Position numbers and translations under genes: made by a program. The notes beneath the pieces are model-generated. The model saw only the letters and a program-made list of their open reading frames with translations. It was not told the origin of the DNA and did not search any database. From NCBI RefSeq assembly GCF_003367475.1, contig NZ_QRHA01000006.1:186001-250000 (forward strand): a stretch of DNA of 64,000 nucleotides. Reading direction: 5' to 3'. The stretch comes from Alteromonas aestuariivivens (GTDB taxonomy: Bacteria > Pseudomonadota > Gammaproteobacteria > Enterobacterales > Alteromonadaceae). Shown here one piece after another: positions 18,489 through 30,810 of the stretch (its first letter is position 1; each line of letters starts with the position of its first letter).

Positions 18489-18520
18489 CTTCGGCAGAAA
18501 TGCACAAGGCAGGAGGCAGC

Positions 18521-20050
18521 ATGGAAGTTACTGATCTTGGCAAACAGCCTTCGGGGTTTGATCAGCTCACTGCTTTTGATGAGTTAGTTGCTCAGCTGGA
18601 ACCGCAGCAAAAGGTTGTGGTGATCCCCGAAAACCAGGATCGATTTGAAGCTCTGGCACACGACCGTGCATTGTTCACCAATCTCTGGGATCGCCTTTAC
18701 CGGCTTGGGTATCTTCGCAGAAGTGCGCCTTCTGCAGGAACAGGAAAGCCGGGTATAAAGCGGCGGCAGCAAGCAAGGCGTAAAAATAGCCGGGAACTGA
18801 AACAGGCGCTGAAGGTGTTTCAGAGTGAAGCGGACATTCATAATGACGGCTGGTTGGGCATGCAAACCTGGAATGCATTGCAGCAACTGTATACGTTTGA
18901 AGAGCCGACGCATCTGGCCGAGTGGCTGGTGCCACGGCGAACAGCTGCGCTCAACAGGAGTATAGAGTTGCGTCTGCGGGTTTTTGGTGTGGTGTCTGAT
19001 GAACGTAATTCGGTCAGAACCCACGGAAGAAACCGCAAGTCTGGTGTGATGGTATGGCAGGCGTTTCTCAGTGCTTTAGTGCGTATGCCTGCGACAGGGC
19101 AGAATGCTGTGGCGCTAACCTACCTGTACGACCTTGACAAGCTCACTCCTTTACTGAGTGCGCAGTTCGATATGCTGACAAGCCCGGATTTTATCCGCGC
19201 CCATCCATTTGTCGAAGACCTGCTCTACAATCTGCTGACCATTGAGTTATGGCTGTACGGATTTTCCGGTGTAAAACCCGGTGCCCACCAATCTAGGCTG
19301 CCGCTGGATGATCCCAGGCATAACGCATTGGCAAAGGCCGTTGCTGAATTGTGTGAATCGGAGCAGTTGGGCAGTGATTCCGGGCAATCAAACCTGCAAA
19401 TTATCCGCCGTTGCCTGGCGTATTTTGCGCTTAACGAGATAAATGGCGAGGAGCGCGATTCGGGCGCCGAGGCCGTCGTTCAGGCTATTGAGGATATGTC
19501 GGCTGACCGTCAGCATGCGCATATGTTATCCACCGAAATCAAGCGTGAATCTTGGGGCAGCTGGCTGTTTGATGGCCTGAAGCGTTCTTTTCGATGGCTG
19601 ATTCGGCAGCTTAAGAAGGGAGTGGACTGGATACAGGAAAAAATCCGCTCGCTGGCGACCGCGGTCAAGAAGATGTCGGTGCATGTCTTAAGCTTTTATC
19701 GCCGCATGGTGAGGGTGCTCTCAGACGGCTTGTCTGTATTTACACAACGTGTATTTAGTGGCTCAACCTTGGACGTTGCTATTTGTCGTGACTGTGATTT
19801 TGATTTTAAGGTGTTTGTTTCCTCATCTGCTGGCACGCAGGAGGTCTCGGCGTTTCTCTTACGCTTCAATACGCTTTGGCGGCGCGTCCATCAGTTGCTG
19901 GATTTGTGTCTGCTGTTGATTAATATTATTCAGTACGCCGTTTTGCTTGCTTCTGCAAACGTTGTCGGGCTGCCTTACATCATCGCAAGATTTTATAAGT
20001 TCACGCGTTCGCCGCGATACCAATTCATAACTGAGGCGTTCGTTGAATAA
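18521..20050 (+). CDS. Protein with N-terminal peptidoglycan-binding-like domain
   Basis: 509-residue protein of unknown function. Residues about 51-127 resemble a PG_binding_1-type helical domain (LWDRLYRLGYL, LKQALKVFQSEADIHNDGWLGMQTWNAL). The middle is helical. Residues about 350-400 are rich in Trp, Lys and Arg (WGSWLFDGLKRSFRWLIRQLKKGVDW) and could lie on a membrane surface. A hydrophobic stretch near 460-493 (LLLINIIQYAVLLASANVVGLPYII) could be a membrane anchor. There is no N-terminal signal peptide. The start is ATG 18521 with AGGAGG directly upstream. The last 26 bases overlap the convergent tolC-like gene. Confidence 0.7.
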   Translation: MEVTDLGKQPSGFDQLTAFDELVAQLEPQQKVVVIPENQDRFEALAHDRALFTNLWDRLYRLGYLRRSAPSAGTGKPGIKRRQQARRKNSRELKQALKVFQSEADIHNDGWLGMQTWNALQQLYTFEEPTHLAEWLVPRRTAALNRSIELRLRVFGVVSDERNSVRTHGRNRKSGVMVWQAFLSALVRMPATGQNAVALTYLYDLDKLTPLLSAQFDMLTSPDFIRAHPFVEDLLYNLLTIELWLYGFSGVKPGAHQSRLPLDDPRHNALAKAVAELCESEQLGSDSGQSNLQIIRRCLAYFALNEINGEERDSGAEAVVQAIEDMSADRQHAHMLSTEIKRESWGSWLFDGLKRSFRWLIRQLKKGVDWIQEKIRSLATAVKKMSVHVLSFYRRMVRVLSDGLSVFTQRVFSGSTLDVAICRDCDFDFKVFVSSSAGTQEVSAFLLRFNTLWRRVHQLLDLCLLLINIIQYAVLLASANVVGLPYIIARFYKFTRSPRYQFITEAFVE

Positions 20051-21467
20051 TGACCTCATTACCCCAGGTTTGCGTAGCTGCTGTACTCACTACGAACTCG
20101 TGATCCAGTGATGCCTGAATTTTCAAAATGCGCAGTTGTTGTCGGTAGATATTGAACTCTGCGCGAATGGACTTGAGCTTTGCTTTGAACGCATCGACTT
20201 CCCGGCTGTTTAGCATAAAAAAGTCACTGGCACCCAGTTCAAACTGGCGTTGCTCCTGGAGCAACAAGCGGTTGTTCAGGCTTACCTGCTGGTGGTTCAT
20301 CTCGAAGAGTCGGGTGGCGTAATTCAGGTTTACCCTGGCTTCTTCAAGTTGTGTGGTAATGGCTTGTTTCAGCGCATCCAGTTCCGCGTTAAGTTGCTGC
20401 AGTTCAAGTTGTACCTTCGACTTTTCTGCCTTTGCCTGATTGCGTTGAAGGGGCAGAGAAAAATACAGCCCAATTTTGGTTTCAGCCTGTTCCAAAGGTG
20501 CAGGCCCGGCGCCGAAATCTTTGGCGATAGCCGCTTCCAAATCCAGTTTGGGAAGCAGTTTGGTGTCAGCCAGGCGCAGCTTTTGCTGATAAACGCTCAG
20601 TTCCAATAGCTTGGTGGCAACGGCCGGGTGAGTATTGATGTCCTTCCTTGTTTGTTCTGCCAGTGCGAAAAGCGTCTGCCATCCTCTGCTTTGTTCGGTA
20701 AATAGACTGCTCTGGGATTGATAGAAGTTCCCCTTCCACCCACCCATAAAGTAGCTGAGTTTCTGAAGGCTGGTCTGGACTTTGCCTTCCGCTTCGAGCA
20801 GGGAGAGTTCCCGCTCCAACAGGCGCGTTGCAAATTCGGTCAGGGCGAGGTCAGCTAGATCTCCGGAATCTACCCTTTGCTGAATCGCGTTTTGTTGCGC
20901 TCTTGTGGTTTCAACCAGTTGTTGTGCGGCAGCCTGGTAGTTTTTTGCCTCGGCCCAGTTGAGGTAGGCCTGTATGGCTTCAAAGTAAAATTCACTTTGT
21001 GCAATTCTCACTTGTTGCCGCCATTTTTGAGTGTCTACGCTGGCCTGGCGAATGCCGAATCGGTTGTCATCAATGTCACGGTTTTGCAGAAGTGACAAAC
21101 GTACGCCCACAGACGCTTCACCACCCGATAAGGTTTGATTTTCCTGCTCATACACCGGAAAGTCCTGATCGGAAATCCGGTACTCGGTAAAGAACTGGGC
21201 ATTAAATGTTTCTATGGGCTGAACATAGCGCTGGCGGGCATAAATCCCGTCATAATAGCCGCTCAGACGTGCAGCACTTTTGTGGATCAGCGTACTATCA
21301 TAAGCCCCTTCAGCTTTTTGCAGGCTGGCCTCATACTGCCCCCCGCGAGCAGCCATAGCACGCAATTCCGGGTGCCCCTGAGAGACTGCCGACAGATATT
21401 CGGCCAGCGACATGGCTGCGCTACCAAAGGGAAGTAGAAGTAGGAATATTAAAAGTGACTGTTTCAC
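20025..21467 (-). CDS. TolC-family outer-membrane channel protein
   Basis: 480-residue outer-membrane efflux protein with a signal peptide (MKQSLLIFLLLLPFGSAAMS), then the TolC-like duplicated alpha-helical hairpins rich in Gln and Glu (VQLELQQLNAELDALKQAI, LNNRLLLQEQRQFELGAS). It is the third gene of the ABC-HlyD-TolC operon. It starts at GTG 21467 in a GTGA overlap with the hlyD-like stop. The 3' end overlaps the convergent 18521-20050 gene. Confidence 0.85.
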   Translation of the reverse strand: MKQSLLIFLLLLPFGSAAMSLAEYLSAVSQGHPELRAMAARGGQYEASLQKAEGAYDSTLIHKSAARLSGYYDGIYARQRYVQPIETFNAQFFTEYRISDQDFPVYEQENQTLSGGEASVGVRLSLLQNRDIDDNRFGIRQASVDTQKWRQQVRIAQSEFYFEAIQAYLNWAEAKNYQAAAQQLVETTRAQQNAIQQRVDSGDLADLALTEFATRLLERELSLLEAEGKVQTSLQKLSYFMGGWKGNFYQSQSSLFTEQSRGWQTLFALAEQTRKDINTHPAVATKLLELSVYQQKLRLADTKLLPKLDLEAAIAKDFGAGPAPLEQAETKIGLYFSLPLQRNQAKAEKSKVQLELQQLNAELDALKQAITTQLEEARVNLNYATRLFEMNHQQVSLNNRLLLQEQRQFELGASDFFMLNSREVDAFKAKLKSIRAEFNIYRQQLRILKIQASLDHEFVVSTAATQTWGNEVIIQRTPQL

Positions 21468-22486
21468 TGTGGCTCACGATTTGTCGTTTGAAGCGGTGGA
21501 AAATTGTTGAGCTGACGCCATAATTCGTAGCCCAATTGTACTTCCTCCAGCAGGATCCAGGCCCGAACCCGGCTGCCAAGTCGGGCGCTGTCATGCTCAG
21601 GCCAGGGATCGGCGCTCGGGTCAGGAGATACCCAAACGGTAAACTCGCCGTTTTGATCGGCTACCGGCTCCACAAACGTGACAATACCTGCAAAGGTTCC
21701 CACTGAAATGCCAGGCCAGCCGCTGAACTGAAATGCTGGCCAGCCTTCGAATTGAATTCTGACTGCCCGGCCTTTGCTCACCAGTGCTGCGTCCAGACCG
21801 TTTACCTTTATGCTTACCTGGCGTTCAATATTGTCCGGCACAAACGAACCAAGTTGCTCTCCCGCTTTGATGTAGGTAGCCGCGCCAATGGAGCGAAGGC
21901 GCACAACCGTACCATCCATGGGAGCGACTTTGGTTCGGGTTTCCTGGCGTGCAAGGGTCATTCGGATGCTGTTTAGATCCTCCTCCGTTTTTGCCAGTTC
22001 TGCTTTCAGTTTTTCCAGCTCAATCTCAACTTGTTCAACCGCTTTGGGTGAAACCAGGCCCTCCAGCAACAAAGTCTGTTGCCGCGAGAGGTTTGACTGG
22101 GCATTTTTTACCGCCTGTTGATTAGCGACAAAGCGCTGGGTTGCGGCTGCCTGCTGCGAGCGAATTTTTTCCAGCCTGTCTGCGTCCACGTCAACGAGTG
22201 TGACAATGGGTTGGCCCTGTCGGACTCTTTCCCCTTCACTTACATGCCACTGCTCAATTTGACCATCCAGCAGAGCTGAGATGGGCTGAATACGCAGTAG
22301 CGGGTTCAGTGAGTTTACACTGCCAGTGCCATAGGCGGTTTGCACCCACGGAGTGAGGGTCAGAAGCGCAACTGCTGCAAGCACAAAGGTGATGATAATC
22401 CAAATAGCTATTCGGTGGATGCTCGGCAAAGACAATTGGTTGAGCGTTTTCATTGCAGCCATAAAGTCAGCACGTGCCAGGCTCAT
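21464..22486 (-). CDS. HlyD-family membrane fusion protein
   Basis: 340-residue periplasmic adaptor. There is one N-terminal transmembrane helix at about residues 27-48 (IWIIITFVLAAVALLTL). Split lipoyl halves follow (ISALLDGQIEQWHVSEGERVRQGQPI and VAPMDGTVVRLRSIG) around a coiled-coil hairpin (about 105-180), then a beta-barrel domain. It links the inner-membrane ABC protein to TolC. A strong GAGGAGG site precedes the ATG, which overlaps the ABC stop codon (ATGA). Confidence 0.87.
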   Translation of the reverse strand: MSLARADFMAAMKTLNQLSLPSIHRIAIWIIITFVLAAVALLTLTPWVQTAYGTGSVNSLNPLLRIQPISALLDGQIEQWHVSEGERVRQGQPIVTLVDVDADRLEKIRSQQAAATQRFVANQQAVKNAQSNLSRQQTLLLEGLVSPKAVEQVEIELEKLKAELAKTEEDLNSIRMTLARQETRTKVAPMDGTVVRLRSIGAATYIKAGEQLGSFVPDNIERQVSIKVNGLDAALVSKGRAVRIQFEGWPAFQFSGWPGISVGTFAGIVTFVEPVADQNGEFTVWVSPDPSADPWPEHDSARLGSRVRAWILLEEVQLGYELWRQLNNFPPLQTTNREPQ

Positions 22487-24153
22487 CGTTTTGCCTCCTC
22501 GCGGGTGTTTTCAGCCTGGCCGGTGCCAACCTGTATGTCTATGGTCTGCGAAAAGCTGGTGGAGTTGGGGGCGTTGGTAAAGTACAACACAGTGCAGTCC
22601 AATTGTTCGAGAATGCGCAATAAAGCTTCACGCCGAGCGCTGGGAATGGCATCAAAATGCTGGTTGAGAATTATGATTCTCGGTGTGTTGAGCATGACCA
22701 CGGCCAGTTTCAGCAGGATCAGTTCCAACGGTTGCAGTGGTGAACCGGCAGCCGACAGAGGGGTCTGCATTTTGAGCGGTAATTTATTAATGCCCTCCAG
22801 TAACCCAACGTTTTCGAGTGCTGAGTTGATTTGGCTGCTTGTAGCGCAAGGTGCCGACAGCTGAATAAATTCGGCAATGGTGCATTCCACGATCAACGAC
22901 CGGTCGAGTATGGAAACCGCCTGCCTGAGTTCATAGGTATCCAGATCTGTGAGCTCATGATCGCCCATATTTATCCAGCCTGATTCCGGTAGGCTATAGC
23001 GCTTTAGCAAATTTACAATGTGTTTTTGTACCCAGTTGGAGTGAGTGACGATAAAGCACTTTGCCCTGTCAGGCAGGCTAAAGTGCAGCTCGCACTTCTC
23101 ACTGTTATGGCTCAGCGTTACATGGTGAAAGGTCAGAGACGCACTTAGAGGGCTCGGTTTGCTTGAGTGCTCGAGAGATTCCTGGGGCATATTGAATATG
23201 CCGCCAAGTTTGTCTGCACTGCCGTACAGTTCGTAATAGAGTTTTAGGTAATGGCTGAAACGGGCAATGCCAAAAAATACAGCCGACATAATCAGCTCCG
23301 CGGCAACAAGTTGTCCAATTGAGAGCTGGCCGGCGATAACCAGCCATCCACCCAGGCCCAGTAAAGCAGCGCTTGCTGAAGCATAAAGCACCAGAAACAT
23401 AATCACCTGGCGAAATGTGAATGAGAAATGCCGGGAGTGAGCGCGAACATATTCATTCACGCAGTGCTCCGTCTTTTTGCCTACGTACTCGAATTGGGTG
23501 GCTGATTTTACAAAGGTATGGGCTGAGGCCAGATTGTTCAGCCATTTAGCTGTGGTGTATTTAGATTCTGACAGGATGACCGCAGTTTCTTTTGCTCGAG
23601 TGGACCAGATCTTCCAGATCAGATACATGGCGAACAGTACACACAGGTTAAACGCCAGTAAAAACGGGTGGTAAAAGGCTACCAGGGTAAAACCTACCAG
23701 CATTTGAAGTACCAGCGCGATACCGTCAACCATCAGGCTGGGGATATTTTTCTGCAACGTCATTATGTCGAAGTAGCGGTGCGTGATACTGGTATTCTTG
23801 CGCCCTTCGAAATAGCTGTGCGGGGCAAGCACTGTGCGAAGGCTCAACTCCGCCACCAGGCGGGCGTATACGCGTCGCTCGTAATACTCCATCACCCGCA
23901 TTCTCAGGGCACTGAAGCACCCGGAGAGCAACAGCGTGCAAAACAGCACGACAGCCAAAACGGTAACGGCCCGGGAGGAGGCAATATTGACGATGGTGTT
24001 GATCAGAGTTTGTACGGCGATAGGTACAGCCAGTGTCAGCAGTCCAATGGCGACACTGTAGGCAATCACTACCCAAAAGAAATCTCGCTCTGGTGCTAAC
24101 AAAGAGACAAGTAATTTTCGGGTCTTTTCGAGGTCTATTGTTTTCTCGGCCAT
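22483..24153 (-). CDS. ABC-exporter-like protein with ATPase-dead nucleotide-binding domain
   Basis: 556-residue type-1-exporter-like protein. The N-terminal ABC transmembrane domain has six helices (about residues 28-300) with normal features (YFEGRKNTSITHRYFDI, GQLSIGQLVAAELIMSAVF). The C-terminal 220 residues follow the nucleotide-binding-domain plan, but every catalytic motif is lost. Walker A is replaced by VTHSNWVQKHIVNLL (about 369-383), the Q-loop Gln by Asp in VSILDRS, LSGGQ by AAGSPLQP (about 468-475), Walker B/Glu by IIILNQ (about 493-498) and the H-loop His by Asn (YFTNA). The frame is intact and overlaps hlyD, so it is not an ordinary pseudogene. Start ATG 24153 is preferred over TTG 24159; neither has a clear Shine-Dalgarno sequence. 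Confidence 0.82.
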   Translation of the reverse strand: MAEKTIDLEKTRKLLVSLLAPERDFFWVVIAYSVAIGLLTLAVPIAVQTLINTIVNIASSRAVTVLAVVLFCTLLLSGCFSALRMRVMEYYERRVYARLVAELSLRTVLAPHSYFEGRKNTSITHRYFDIMTLQKNIPSLMVDGIALVLQMLVGFTLVAFYHPFLLAFNLCVLFAMYLIWKIWSTRAKETAVILSESKYTTAKWLNNLASAHTFVKSATQFEYVGKKTEHCVNEYVRAHSRHFSFTFRQVIMFLVLYASASAALLGLGGWLVIAGQLSIGQLVAAELIMSAVFFGIARFSHYLKLYYELYGSADKLGGIFNMPQESLEHSSKPSPLSASLTFHHVTLSHNSEKCELHFSLPDRAKCFIVTHSNWVQKHIVNLLKRYSLPESGWINMGDHELTDLDTYELRQAVSILDRSLIVECTIAEFIQLSAPCATSSQINSALENVGLLEGINKLPLKMQTPLSAAGSPLQPLELILLKLAVVMLNTPRIIILNQHFDAIPSARREALLRILEQLDCTVLYFTNAPNSTSFSQTIDIQVGTGQAENTREEAKR

Positions 24154-24250
24154 AATCAAGAAATTTTTGCGGGGTTAGTTCGTAATATACGGCCTGTTAT
24201 GTTAAAAGTTAAGTTGATAATAATTGAGTTTGATTCAGTTTAAATTTGAT

Positions 24251-25141
24251 ATGAGCCATCTTAACTACCATCATCTCAAGTACTTTTACTTAACCGCCAA
24301 GCACGGCACCATCATTGAGGCCAGTAAACTTTTGCACGTTACGCCGCAAACGGTGAGCAGCCAGATTGCCGCATTGGAAACCCAACTGCAAAAGAAGGTC
24401 TTTGAGAGACAGGGGAAACGACTGAAACTGAATGCCGTTGGGGAAACGGTTTTTCATTATGCGAAAAGCATATTTGCCACCGGAGATGATCTGCTGCTGG
24501 CGGTAGCCGCCATGGAACAGGCTAAGAAGCAAACGTTTGTTATTGGTTCGACTGATGCAGTGCCTAAGATGTTGGTATATAAGCTTTTCTCCCCAATGAT
24601 AGAAGATGTTTCAAATGCCCATTTTGTGTTCAGGGAGGGCGGATTCGATGTTTTGCTCACAGAGTTGGCATTGGGGCGGGTAGATTTGATCCTGGCAGAC
24701 AAAGCGGTAATGGCCGGAGCTAAGGTAAAGGCCCGCAGTATTCTGTTAGGGGAGTCTTCATTGGGCTTTTTTGCCTCTCCCCAGCGTGTTACGCAAATTC
24801 GCAGTGACTTTCCCCGCTCTCTAAACAATGTGCCAATGTTACTGCCCGGCGACCGCAACTCATTAAGGCCGTTGCTGATGGAGTGGTTGCAGGAACACAA
24901 TGTGGTGCCCAATGTAATAGCTGAGTTCGATGACAGCGCAACACTCAAACTGTTCGGTCTGCATGACAGCGGCATATTTTGCGCACCCTTATGCATTCGC
25001 GATGAACTGGAACAACAGTATAACGTTGCACTAGTGAAACAGATTGATCTGCAGGAAAGCTTTTATGTGACAACAACCGGAAACCAGGACAAGTCGGCCA
25101 TGGATAAGCTGAAGCGTCTGGCCGCTGCTATTTTAGGCTAA
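24251..25141 (+). CDS. LysR-family regulator, NhaR-like
   Basis: 296-residue LysR-type regulator close in plan to NhaR (MSHLNYHHLKYFYLTAKHG compared with E. coli MSMSHINYNHLYYFW). The winged HTH is at residues 4-62 (TPQTVSSQIAALETQL) and the effector domain has FVIGSTDAVPKMLVYKL and LLPGDRNSLRPLLMEWL. The frame extends 27 bases upstream, but ATG 24251 gives the family N-terminus. It is divergent from the ABC operon across about 97 bp, so control of that operon or response to Na+/stress is plausible. No nhaA is nearby. Confidence 0.85.
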   Translation: MSHLNYHHLKYFYLTAKHGTIIEASKLLHVTPQTVSSQIAALETQLQKKVFERQGKRLKLNAVGETVFHYAKSIFATGDDLLLAVAAMEQAKKQTFVIGSTDAVPKMLVYKLFSPMIEDVSNAHFVFREGGFDVLLTELALGRVDLILADKAVMAGAKVKARSILLGESSLGFFASPQRVTQIRSDFPRSLNNVPMLLPGDRNSLRPLLMEWLQEHNVVPNVIAEFDDSATLKLFGLHDSGIFCAPLCIRDELEQQYNVALVKQIDLQESFYVTTTGNQDKSAMDKLKRLAAAILG

Positions 25142-28264: not shown

Positions 28265-29755
28265 TCAACTGCGCTTGCAGTATTGGTTTATAAACGTCTG
28301 GTGGTCTGGCAGTCTGTTTACCAGTTGAAGTATTTGCTCACGGTGTTGGCTGAGCGCCTGGCTCAGTTGCTGGTCGGTCATTAGTGCCGGGGCAGGATGA
28401 TGGTGTTTTGGTAGTAATCGTTGCCCAAGCATTACCTGAGTCCAGGAATCTACCCGGAACAATTCATTGTGTTTCTGAAACGCGTGCCCCTGAGTGGCGA
28501 AGAGGTTGATACGATGCAGCAGAGTTTCGGGAATCTCCATTCTTCTACAATAGTCCCAAAACGGACTGTCGTTGCGTTCGGTGACATGGTAGTGCAACAC
28601 AATAAAGTCACGGATCCGCTCCAGTTCTTCAATGGTTTGCTGGTTATACTCGTCGATCAGGGCGCTGTCCCACCCATTAAAAGGAAACAGCTGCATCAGG
28701 CGGGTGATACCCATAATGATCAGGTGAATGCTGGTGGACTCCAGTGGCTCGACAAAGCCGCTTGCCAGGCCCAGGGCGACACAGTTTTTGTTCCAGGCTT
28801 TGAGACGGCGCCCGGTACGGTAGTGAATGACTCTCGGTTCAGTAATTGGCGTTCCTTCTACGTGACTGAGTAAATATTCGCGGGCCTCGTCGTCGCTCAT
28901 GTGCTGCCGGCTGTATACCAGCCCGTTTCCGACCCGGTGCTGCAGTGGGATTTGCCATTGCCAGCCGGCGTGGTGCGCAATGGAGCGCGTAAAGGGTTGG
29001 GCGGGTGCTACCGATTCAGTTTGTATCGCCACGGCGCTGTCGCAGGGCAACCAGTGGGACCAGTCTTCATATCCGGTATGCAAGGTTTGTTCGATCAGCA
29101 GCCCGCGAAAACCCGTGCAGTCAATAAACAGATCACCTTCAATTCGGGTACCGTCGGTCAGAACCAGGGCGCTGATGAAATCGTTTTCGTGCTGCTCCAC
29201 CTGTTCGATTTTGCCTTCAATACGCTTGACGCCCAAAGCCTGACAAAAGTTGGCCAAAAATCGTGCGTAGTCTCCCGCATCCAGATGGTAAGCGTAGTTG
29301 ATGTCTGATTGAGGGGAGGTGGCAAATTTGCCCTGAAGCGCCGCTTCCAGTTCCAGGCAGTAGTCGCCGTAGTTGCCGGCTAAGCCCCGCTTTCTGGCTT
29401 CCAGCCAGAAGTGTACGAATTCAGCCAGCCAGCTTTGCTGGCCGGTTTGACCAAATGAGTGAATGTAGCTGTCTCCCACCTGCCCCCAGTTTTCAAACTG
29501 GATCCCGAGTTTGAAGGTGGCCGAGGTGGCTTGCATAAAAGCTTGTTCGTCAATGCGCAGTAACTTGTGAAATACCCGCAGCGGTGGAATGGTTGCTTCG
29601 CCCACCCCCACCGTGCCAATTTCAGCCGATTCCACCAGTGTAATGTCCAGCAGTGGCCCCATTTTCTTTGCCAGCGCCGCCGCGGCTATCCAGCCAGCTG
29701 TTCCGCCACCGGCAATAACAATCCGGGAATTTGTGCTTGGGTTTTCTTTGGTCAT
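28265..29755 (-). CDS. Flavin-dependent (tryptophan-type) halogenase homologue
   Basis: 496-residue flavoprotein of the tryptophan-halogenase family. It has GGGTAG at residues 16-21 for FAD, the family Lys K82 (FKLGIQFENW), WxWxIP as WQWQIP (265-270) and the EPLEST motif that carries the catalytic Glu. All hallmark residues are present. It is last in the operon TonB receptor > SapC > JmjC cupin > halogenase, a combination recurrent in Alteromonadales, Xanthomonads and Caulobacter carbohydrate loci. Free tryptophan as substrate is therefore doubtful; the real substrate is unknown. Confidence 0.85.
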   Translation of the reverse strand: MTKENPSTNSRIVIAGGGTAGWIAAAALAKKMGPLLDITLVESAEIGTVGVGEATIPPLRVFHKLLRIDEQAFMQATSATFKLGIQFENWGQVGDSYIHSFGQTGQQSWLAEFVHFWLEARKRGLAGNYGDYCLELEAALQGKFATSPQSDINYAYHLDAGDYARFLANFCQALGVKRIEGKIEQVEQHENDFISALVLTDGTRIEGDLFIDCTGFRGLLIEQTLHTGYEDWSHWLPCDSAVAIQTESVAPAQPFTRSIAHHAGWQWQIPLQHRVGNGLVYSRQHMSDDEAREYLLSHVEGTPITEPRVIHYRTGRRLKAWNKNCVALGLASGFVEPLESTSIHLIIMGITRLMQLFPFNGWDSALIDEYNQQTIEELERIRDFIVLHYHVTERNDSPFWDYCRRMEIPETLLHRINLFATQGHAFQKHNELFRVDSWTQVMLGQRLLPKHHHPAPALMTDQQLSQALSQHREQILQLVNRLPDHQTFINQYCKRS

Positions 29756-29775
29756 GGTTTATGCCACCAAGTGGG

Positions 29776-30810
29776 TTATCGGTTTAATTGGTTGAGCAGC
29801 AGTGACCGCAGTCGACGGGCCTTCAATTCATCCATTGGCCCCAGTATGCCCTGCGATTCAGGCGGCAAGTGTTTAGCGGCTGTAGCTGAGTCACCAAATA
29901 CGTAGTAATCAAACAAGGTTTTCCATGCGGCTTTTTCCGCTGCAGATTTATCTCTTATTCCTAACATTGCGTGCAGTAGAGCGCCCATCCCGGCTGGCAA
30001 ATACGCGGCAGAGGGAGACCACCAGTAGTTGATCAGAATGTTGAAGTCATTCAGCCCTTCTACCTGATGCCACCACATGGTGGGAATGTAAATGGCGTCT
30101 CCTGGCTTCAGCTCGGCCACCTGGCCAACGCTGAGTGCCTGCCGGAAGTTGGGGTAACGGGCGAAATCAGGGTTGTAAAAATCAACCATACTGATGGCTT
30201 GCCCCCCCGGGGTCATTTCCAGAGGGCCGGGATAAAGATTGGCGATTTGACCCGGTGGGAACAGCACAAATCGCCTTCGCCCGGCTACGCAGCAGGCAAT
30301 GTTCTCCAGAGAATCAAAATGGCATGAGGCCAAAGAGCGATTGCCTATCCAGATACTCGCCAATGGAGGTGTGATGGGAATGTCCGGGTTTTCAATCGGA
30401 ACCGTCAGGTCATTTTCTGCCCGCATGGCCGGAAAATGACTGTCTACCGCATTGGAGGCAACATACAGACTGGGCGCGTCATCACAGCCCAGGGTGGCAA
30501 GAATGCTGTCCAGCATTCCGTCAATCTGGCCCATGTGACTTTCGTAGTTGAGTTTGCTGACCTGCTCGTTATAAAAATAACGCCCGCGGATCTCGCTTGG
30601 GCCCTGATAAATCATGCTGCGCTTGCCATTGTAAAAGCGCTTGAGATAGGTCACGGCCGATTCAGGCCCAGCCCTGGACGCTTCAACCAGTGGCCAGCCC
30701 GACACCAATCCTCGAAGAATAACGGGTTGTTGTTCTTTCACCAGCATCTGCGAAAGCGCATCTTTGTCAGCGCCGCAGATTTCCTTTACCCGGGTATCAA
30801 TTCCAAACAT
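29776..30810 (-). CDS. Cupin-like (JmjC-type) Fe(II)/2-oxoglutarate protein
   Basis: 344-residue JmjC/cupin_8-like protein. The metal-site pattern HFDSLENIACCVAGRRRFVLF provides His and Asp, and DAIYIPTMWWHQVE provides the distal His. Relatives hydroxylate proteins or small molecules. It is separated by 17-20 bp from both SapC and halogenase genes, so they form one operon. The pairing of a JmjC oxygenase with a halogenase suggests both modify the same target (inference). Confidence 0.83.
   Translation of the reverse strand: MFGIDTRVKEICGADKDALSQMLVKEQQPVILRGLVSGWPLVEASRAGPESAVTYLKRFYNGKRSMIYQGPSEIRGRYFYNEQVSKLNYESHMGQIDGMLDSILATLGCDDAPSLYVASNAVDSHFPAMRAENDLTVPIENPDIPITPPLASIWIGNRSLASCHFDSLENIACCVAGRRRFVLFPPGQIANLYPGPLEMTPGGQAISMVDFYNPDFARYPNFRQALSVGQVAELKPGDAIYIPTMWWHQVEGLNDFNILINYWWSPSAAYLPAGMGALLHAMLGIRDKSAAEKAAWKTLFDYYVFGDSATAAKHLPPESQGILGPMDELKARRLRSLLLNQLNR

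Follow-up and report, generated by a model that had tools for sequence, protein, structure and literature searches.

SbmA and the SLiPTs are proton-driven descendants of ATP-binding cassette (ABC) exporters in which coupling runs via glutamates of the transmembrane domain (TMD), according to PMC13316013. In LmrA, a glutamate of transmembrane helix 6 (TM6), E314, faces amides of TM3 and is essential for proton-coupled transport (PMC6155054), and MsbA devoid of its nucleotide-binding domains (NBDs) still transports ethidium in a ΔpH-dependent manner (PMC4979069). Here we describe an operon from a 64,000-nucleotide stretch of Alteromonas aestuariivivens (contig NZ_QRHA01000006.1, positions 186,001–250,000; the whole stretch is referred to as the window) that encodes an ABC-exporter-like protein together with a HlyD-type and a TolC-type partner. 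An ATPase is what defines ABC transporters; in the family to which this protein belongs, every catalytic residue has been replaced but the fold of the NBD has been kept. Taken together, we regard the locus as a real, conserved, ATPase-less variant of the tripartite ABC exporter.

The ABC-like gene (22483–24153, minus strand) is a frame without internal stop for 556 amino acids (aa), with the TMD at about residues 20–320 and a pseudo-NBD at residues 333–542 (22528–23157, minus strand); an alternative TTG start at 24159, 6 bases upstream, would add two residues. It is followed by the genes for the periplasmic adaptor (340 aa; 21464–22486, minus strand) and the outer-membrane channel (480 aa; 20025–21467, minus strand). 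The overlaps behind the translational coupling of these intact genes stated in the initial annotation can be read directly in the sequence, as ATGA at 22486–22483 and GTGA at 21467–21464, and an AGGAGG stands upstream of the HlyD-like start. Pfam (E ≤ 0.01) assigns ABC_membrane to the first protein (PF00664, 7.6e-16, 59 bits against a cut-off of 28), HlyD_3 to the adaptor and OEP to the third protein, and finds no ABC_tran match in the first; a PF00005 scan of the window's own genome likewise returned 41 ABC_tran matches, the ABC-like gene not among them. The alignments to NCBIfam exporter models extend across the NBD portion but score far under the cut-offs, the best being HlyB TIGR01846 (7.6e-36, 123.6 bits versus 725.55), followed by other type 1 secretion system (T1SS) models (TIGR03375, 73.9 versus 693.1; TIGR01842, 66.9 versus 510.15). 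The short adaptor fits the HlyD model (8.7e-22) and the RND adaptor model (7.2e-21) about equally well, in each case under the cut-off. The operon is best explained as encoding a predicted tripartite export machine made up of an inner-membrane transporter, a periplasmic adaptor and an outer-membrane channel.

We placed the catalytic columns by alignment with five canonical exporters. In the window protein the Walker A Lys is replaced by Q376, the signature Ser by Q474, the Walker B Asp by N497, the catalytic Glu by Q498 and the H-loop His by N527; the Walker A glycines are replaced as well, and the Q-loop position contains no Gln (SILDRSL). The loss of all ATPase motifs from an intact frame, as initially annotated, therefore holds for all five catalytic columns and the Q-loop. 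The NBD-like shape of the C-terminus was also found upon structure prediction: an AlphaFold2 model built on a 22-row alignment (mean predicted local distance difference test score, pLDDT, 69.3) shows NBD-type secondary structure with pLDDT 72–88 in ten-residue blocks across residues 341–540, and residues 333–542 superpose on the NBD of Streptococcus mutans ComA (3vx4) at 2.4 Å (208 residues aligned, Z 21.9). The transporter descends from ABC exporters and has kept the NBD fold while losing all ATPase motifs. It presumably has no working ATPase of its own and does not hydrolyse ATP.

To place this loss in a wider context we compared the main clade, represented by 63 non-identical proteins, namely 45 near ones of Alteromonadaceae type (the window protein, its locus relatives and members from genome surveys) and 18 distant ones; with nine sisters the whole family counts 72. 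A truncated locus (L099) as well as identical and repeat-fetched loci were left out before the counts, L045, which repeats the window, was still included in two early tallies (64 there) and removed from later ones, and the canonical rows exclude L129 and L120–L123. Neither a GxxxxGK[ST] Walker A nor an LSGG[QE] signature occurs in any of the 63 main-clade members, versus 5/5 canonical controls in the same alignment; the motifs are intact in 22/22 further canonical exporters. Moreover, the substitutes are fixed among the 45 near proteins: Walker A K to Q in 44 (K in 1), signature S to Q in 43 (L in 2), Walker B D to N in 44 (T in 1), catalytic E to Q in 45 and H-loop H to N in 41. A loose 'DE' pattern matches 2/45 near rows somewhere in the domain, yet column 498 is Q in all 45. 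The 18 distant members lack Walker A as well, but the residues they carry differ from the near-clade ones.

Within the pseudo-NBD, conservation is highest at the former motif sites (23 of 52 near-invariant, compared to 7 of 157 elsewhere; Fisher p 9e-11), and the TMD is the most conserved part of the transporter. Across 23 close pairs, the ratio of nonsynonymous to synonymous substitution (dN/dS) is 0–0.062 for the pseudo-NBD (17 computable), 0–0.022 for the TMD (18 computable) and 0–0.025 for the motif sites (12 computable), values that are rough since saturation is approached or exceeded by many of the synonymous distances. The cluster of ABC-like, HlyD and TolC genes is found in 39/39 near loci (the window and 38 others), and HlyD and TolC genes adjoin the ABC-like gene in 18/18 distant loci, although in two of them the contig stops within the TolC gene. 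The ATPase-less state is hence old and under strong purifying selection, and the suggestion that the operon is retained rather than decaying is borne out.

The 38 loci were taken from genome contigs and carry relatives at 54–68% identity, nearly all from Alteromonadaceae-type genera and one from an Endozoicomonas sp.; the distant ATPase-less relatives belong to other Gammaproteobacteria and Sphingomonadales, and some hosts are marine and soil bacteria. Genome surveys, which are overlapping samples, gave family matches in 9/369 genomes of the class, 11/398 of the phylum, 13/147 of the family and 3/337 of a second class, one match each in the class (G249) and phylum (G709) surveys being a sister instead of an ATPase-less member. 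As a genome of the same genus as the window (G637) is devoid of the system, we consider it accessory and patchily distributed. Plasmid records, through which alone Bacteroidota were covered, contained 17 matches (15 Sphingomonadales and 2 Persicobacter). In public records several of the family proteins are labelled 'ABC transporter ATP-binding protein'.

No close relative with an intact Walker A was found among the 63 main-clade members, the nearest ones being sisters (L075, L051) at 25–29% identity over aligned columns. The nine sisters (G249/L062, G709/L086, Persicobacter L096, Riemerella L101 and Aureibacter L102, and G063, G041, G188 and G049 under the labels L104, L110, L112 and L113) carry the TMD hallmarks of the family, with a HlyD neighbour in 5/5 checked. 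Their NBDs are graded: a GK[ST] Walker A is found in 3/9, LILDE in G249, VDG in G709 and LLKE in Riemerella; G041, G188 and G049 show no recognisable ATPase motif, and LSGG[QE] is found in 0/9. In L112 and L113 (G188 and G049; frames of 520–527 aa) the C-terminal domain is further reduced and gapped where Walker A used to be. The sisters provide a natural gradient, with near-intact proteins at one end and ATPase-less ones at the other. In a tree from TMD columns only (18/45 near, 17/18 distant, 9/9 sister and 5/5 canonical rows) the family stands apart from the canonical exporters (100/99) and a branch (94/100) has the sisters on one side. Since the program flags long branches, we take the order of branching as tentative. 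Mapped onto this tree, Walker A presence requires three changes with regain allowed, and probably about five losses if regain is disallowed. As queries, the sister alignment A3 gave matches in 10/219 genomes and L086 alone gave none in 299 genomes at E ≤ 1e-75, a null that is uninformative in itself.

An engine domain that is kept by selection without its ATP-burning residues suggests that the pump probably has a different source of energy, an ion gradient being the most likely one. Ion coupling needs an invariant carboxylate in a membrane helix. Only two ionisable residues are conserved within hydrophobic segments across the 72 proteins: E286 in TM6 (72/72 in the family, 0/22 canonical exporters; codon at 23296–23298, minus strand, computed from the start at 24153), which is the only acidic residue so conserved and a candidate ion-coupling carboxylate, and H162 in the turn between TM3 and TM4 (71/72, and 0/22 canonical exporters). 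Position 308, where TM6 ends on the cytoplasmic side, carries an acidic residue (E/D) in 69/72, and Q150, W204 and Y307 are each found in 27/27 of a family subset and in 0/22 canonical exporters. On these grounds we propose a tripartite exporter that works without ATP, probably on an ion gradient, with the pseudo-NBD as a structural or gating part, and assign this reading a probability of roughly 0.5. An ion gradient (most likely of protons, possibly of sodium) would act on E286 to drive substrate movement, with H162 and E/D308 as further candidate coupling residues, and the pseudo-NBD dimer might hold or gate the two transmembrane halves via the retained TMD–NBD connection without powering them. 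The neutral character of the replacements (K to Q, D to N, E to Q, H to N) together with the constrained former pocket hints at such a dimer-holding or gating part, or at a pocket for another ligand. As the adaptor is short and no gene for a secreted protein was identified, a small molecule or peptide is favoured over a large protein as substrate.

Extending this proposal, the whole family, spanning Alteromonadaceae, other Gammaproteobacteria, Sphingomonadales and partly degenerate Bacteroidota sisters, might have swapped ATP for ion-gradient drive and turned the NBD into a dead, repurposed gate, the motifs being lost repeatedly because a family-wide TM6 glutamate had already made ATP dispensable; we put this forward tentatively, at somewhat less than even odds. 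Such an order would be permissive, with ion coupling first and repeated ATPase loss after, and the data do not force it.

Several points weigh against ion-gradient drive. E286, H162 and Q150 are also present in sisters that keep Walker A (L051, L075, L101) and hence do not track ATPase loss; E286 would predate the losses. As the equivalent of LmrA E314, E286 was rejected by residue spacing: it lies 90 residues from the Walker A column in the window protein, and its column lies 94 from it in the MsbA-like L052, compared to 74 between E314 and K388, which by residue counting puts E314 about 20 residues further along TM6 and nearer to E/D308. The SLiPTs dropped the NBD entirely and this family keeps it. 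The TMD is poorly modelled (pLDDT 41–81 by block, below 50 around residues 103–126, where coupling helices would be sought; overall root-mean-square deviation 17–20 Å in most full-length matches), so nothing was concluded from its arrangement. Individual members also retain single catalytic residues, namely K at the Walker A Lys column in L087, E at the catalytic Glu column in L047 and L093, and H at the H column in L089 and L048. Overall, we give the ion gradient as energy source about an even chance.

Among the alternatives, an ATP-independent gated conduit or facilitator fares best: the substrate would run down its own gradient across both membranes, without ion coupling, and the path would be opened by the substrate itself or by a ligand bound where ATP used to sit. 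This would fit with the lack of a proven energy-coupling motif and with a pocket that is strongly conserved but made up of new residues, as expected for a ligand or gating site, and a D-loop mutant of TAP becomes a facilitator (PMC7756269); however, a buried glutamate in 72/72 proteins would be costly for a plain conduit and suggests ion binding, so that we consider this explanation unlikely. Still more doubtful in our view is ATP drive in trans, by a separate ATPase or an ABC subunit whose gene lies elsewhere. The window's genome does contain exporters with intact motifs (L002, L052, L053, L055) and free-standing ABC_tran proteins, but a canonical ABC ATPase frame is missing from the fetched flanks of 38/39 loci, the sole exception being a 558-aa frame at L009 that we take for an unrelated ABC protein, and no second family member was found in the window's own genome at E ≤ 1e-60. 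Furthermore, a subunit lacking both signature and Walker residues would spoil both composite sites (general ABC background and PMC7756269), so that a heterodimer would probably be defective in both. Of the mechanisms originally envisaged, namely a separate ATPase, an energy-independent or proton-motive-force-driven conduit and a sensor, the ABC heterodimer is hence disfavoured and energisation of the proton-motive-force type appears to be the best remaining choice.

A residual or unorthodox use of nucleotide, in which the pseudo-NBD would act as a switch that still binds nucleotide or some other ligand, or would hydrolyse very slowly, would fit the kept fold, the fixed pocket residues and the partial motifs of the sisters; against it, the Walker A lysine and glycines, the Walker B Asp, the catalytic Glu and the His are all replaced in the window protein, and we hold it for improbable. 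A divergent LysR gene stands beside the operon in 33/39 loci (in the window at 24224–25141, plus strand; NhaR-like by NCBIfam, 187.3 bits, cut-off 219), which could point to a sensor or regulatory assembly signalling to this regulator instead of a transporter. Six near loci are without this neighbour, though, and adaptor and channel genes in 39/39 and 18/18 loci together with a TMD that is the most conserved part are what is expected from a transport machine, making the sensor very improbable. A decaying exporter, or pseudogene in progress, as might be suspected from the truncated L099 on a Sphingopyxis plasmid and from the patchy distribution in 13/147 genomes of the family, is hardly credible given dN/dS near zero, fixed replacements and intact operons, and on the first two grounds we reject it for the near clade.

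We also looked at neighbouring genes for a substrate and found genes for a UDP-glucose dehydrogenase (L017), an HD-domain protein (L016), a tricorn-type protease (L013), a halogenase (L030 and the window) and DabA (L091) beside some loci; as no neighbour gene is common across genera, no substrate is proposed. No RTX-type substrate gene was recognised among the neighbouring frames, some of which were Pfam-scanned, and no dedicated search was made. A role in anti-phage defence was rejected, PADLOC giving no match for five proteins of the region. In the window a tryptophan-halogenase gene (PF04820, 7.8e-194) adjoins a Cupin_8 gene (28265–30810, minus strand), and halogenase-cluster genes lie downstream of the operon also in L016, L030, L033 and L039 (L030 Pfam-checked). 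On the Sphingobium plasmid pHAL16 (L091) a DabA inorganic-carbon transporter gene (PF10070; 1362–3914) ends 44 bp upstream of the ABC-like gene on the same strand, and in Sphingopyxis sp. 113P3 (L099, 7001–9643) the ABC-like gene is cut short next to an IS3 transposase. In many Alteromonas loci (e.g. L017, L019–L023) the contig ends about 4–6 kb downstream of the ABC-like gene, as if at a repeat (perhaps an rRNA operon). The other flank in the window (18500–20050, plus strand) encodes a protein of 516 aa in which a peptidoglycan-binding domain is weakly recognised (PF01471, 2.1e-05); its gene converges on the TolC gene and overlaps the end of the latter by 26 bp.

Compared to described systems, the operon resembles type 1 secretion exporters (HlyB/LssB/PrtD) in its exporter-type TMD (ABC_membrane), NBD fold and ABC–HlyD–TolC gene order. 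The label 'type-1-secretion-like' thus stands for the gene order, in 39/39 loci, but not for a protein substrate, none having been identified; in addition, the family protein has neither an N-terminal C39-like domain nor an ATPase motif, stays under the T1SS cut-offs and carries E286, Q150, W204 and Y307, which are missing from the 22 canonical rows. Heterodimers with one degenerate site (TM287/288, TAP, TmrAB, MsRv1273c/72c) likewise contain an NBD with altered catalytic residues, but these have one functional site left and a partner gene, whereas the family protein has lost every motif and has no partner gene next to it. Full-text searches of the open-access PMC literature brought up no account of such a family, which is weak evidence of absence. 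The nearest functional analogues of the proposed model are the SbmA/BacA-like SLiPTs, which share ABC-exporter descent and ATP-free proton coupling; they have neither NBD nor coupling helices and import peptides (PMC13316013), in contrast to the conserved NBD fold and tripartite export operon found here. For LmrA and MsbA, proton or ion coupling by the membrane domain has been reported, with an essential TM6 glutamate in LmrA; both are active ATPases, unlike this family, and E286 is off the E314 position by residue counting. The family could therefore serve to test whether an ion gradient can drive the membrane domain of an ABC exporter, a claim made for LmrA and MsbA, and which role an NBD has besides hydrolysis, and the operon would predict a third kind of energy supply for HlyD–TolC machines built on an ABC-type protein.

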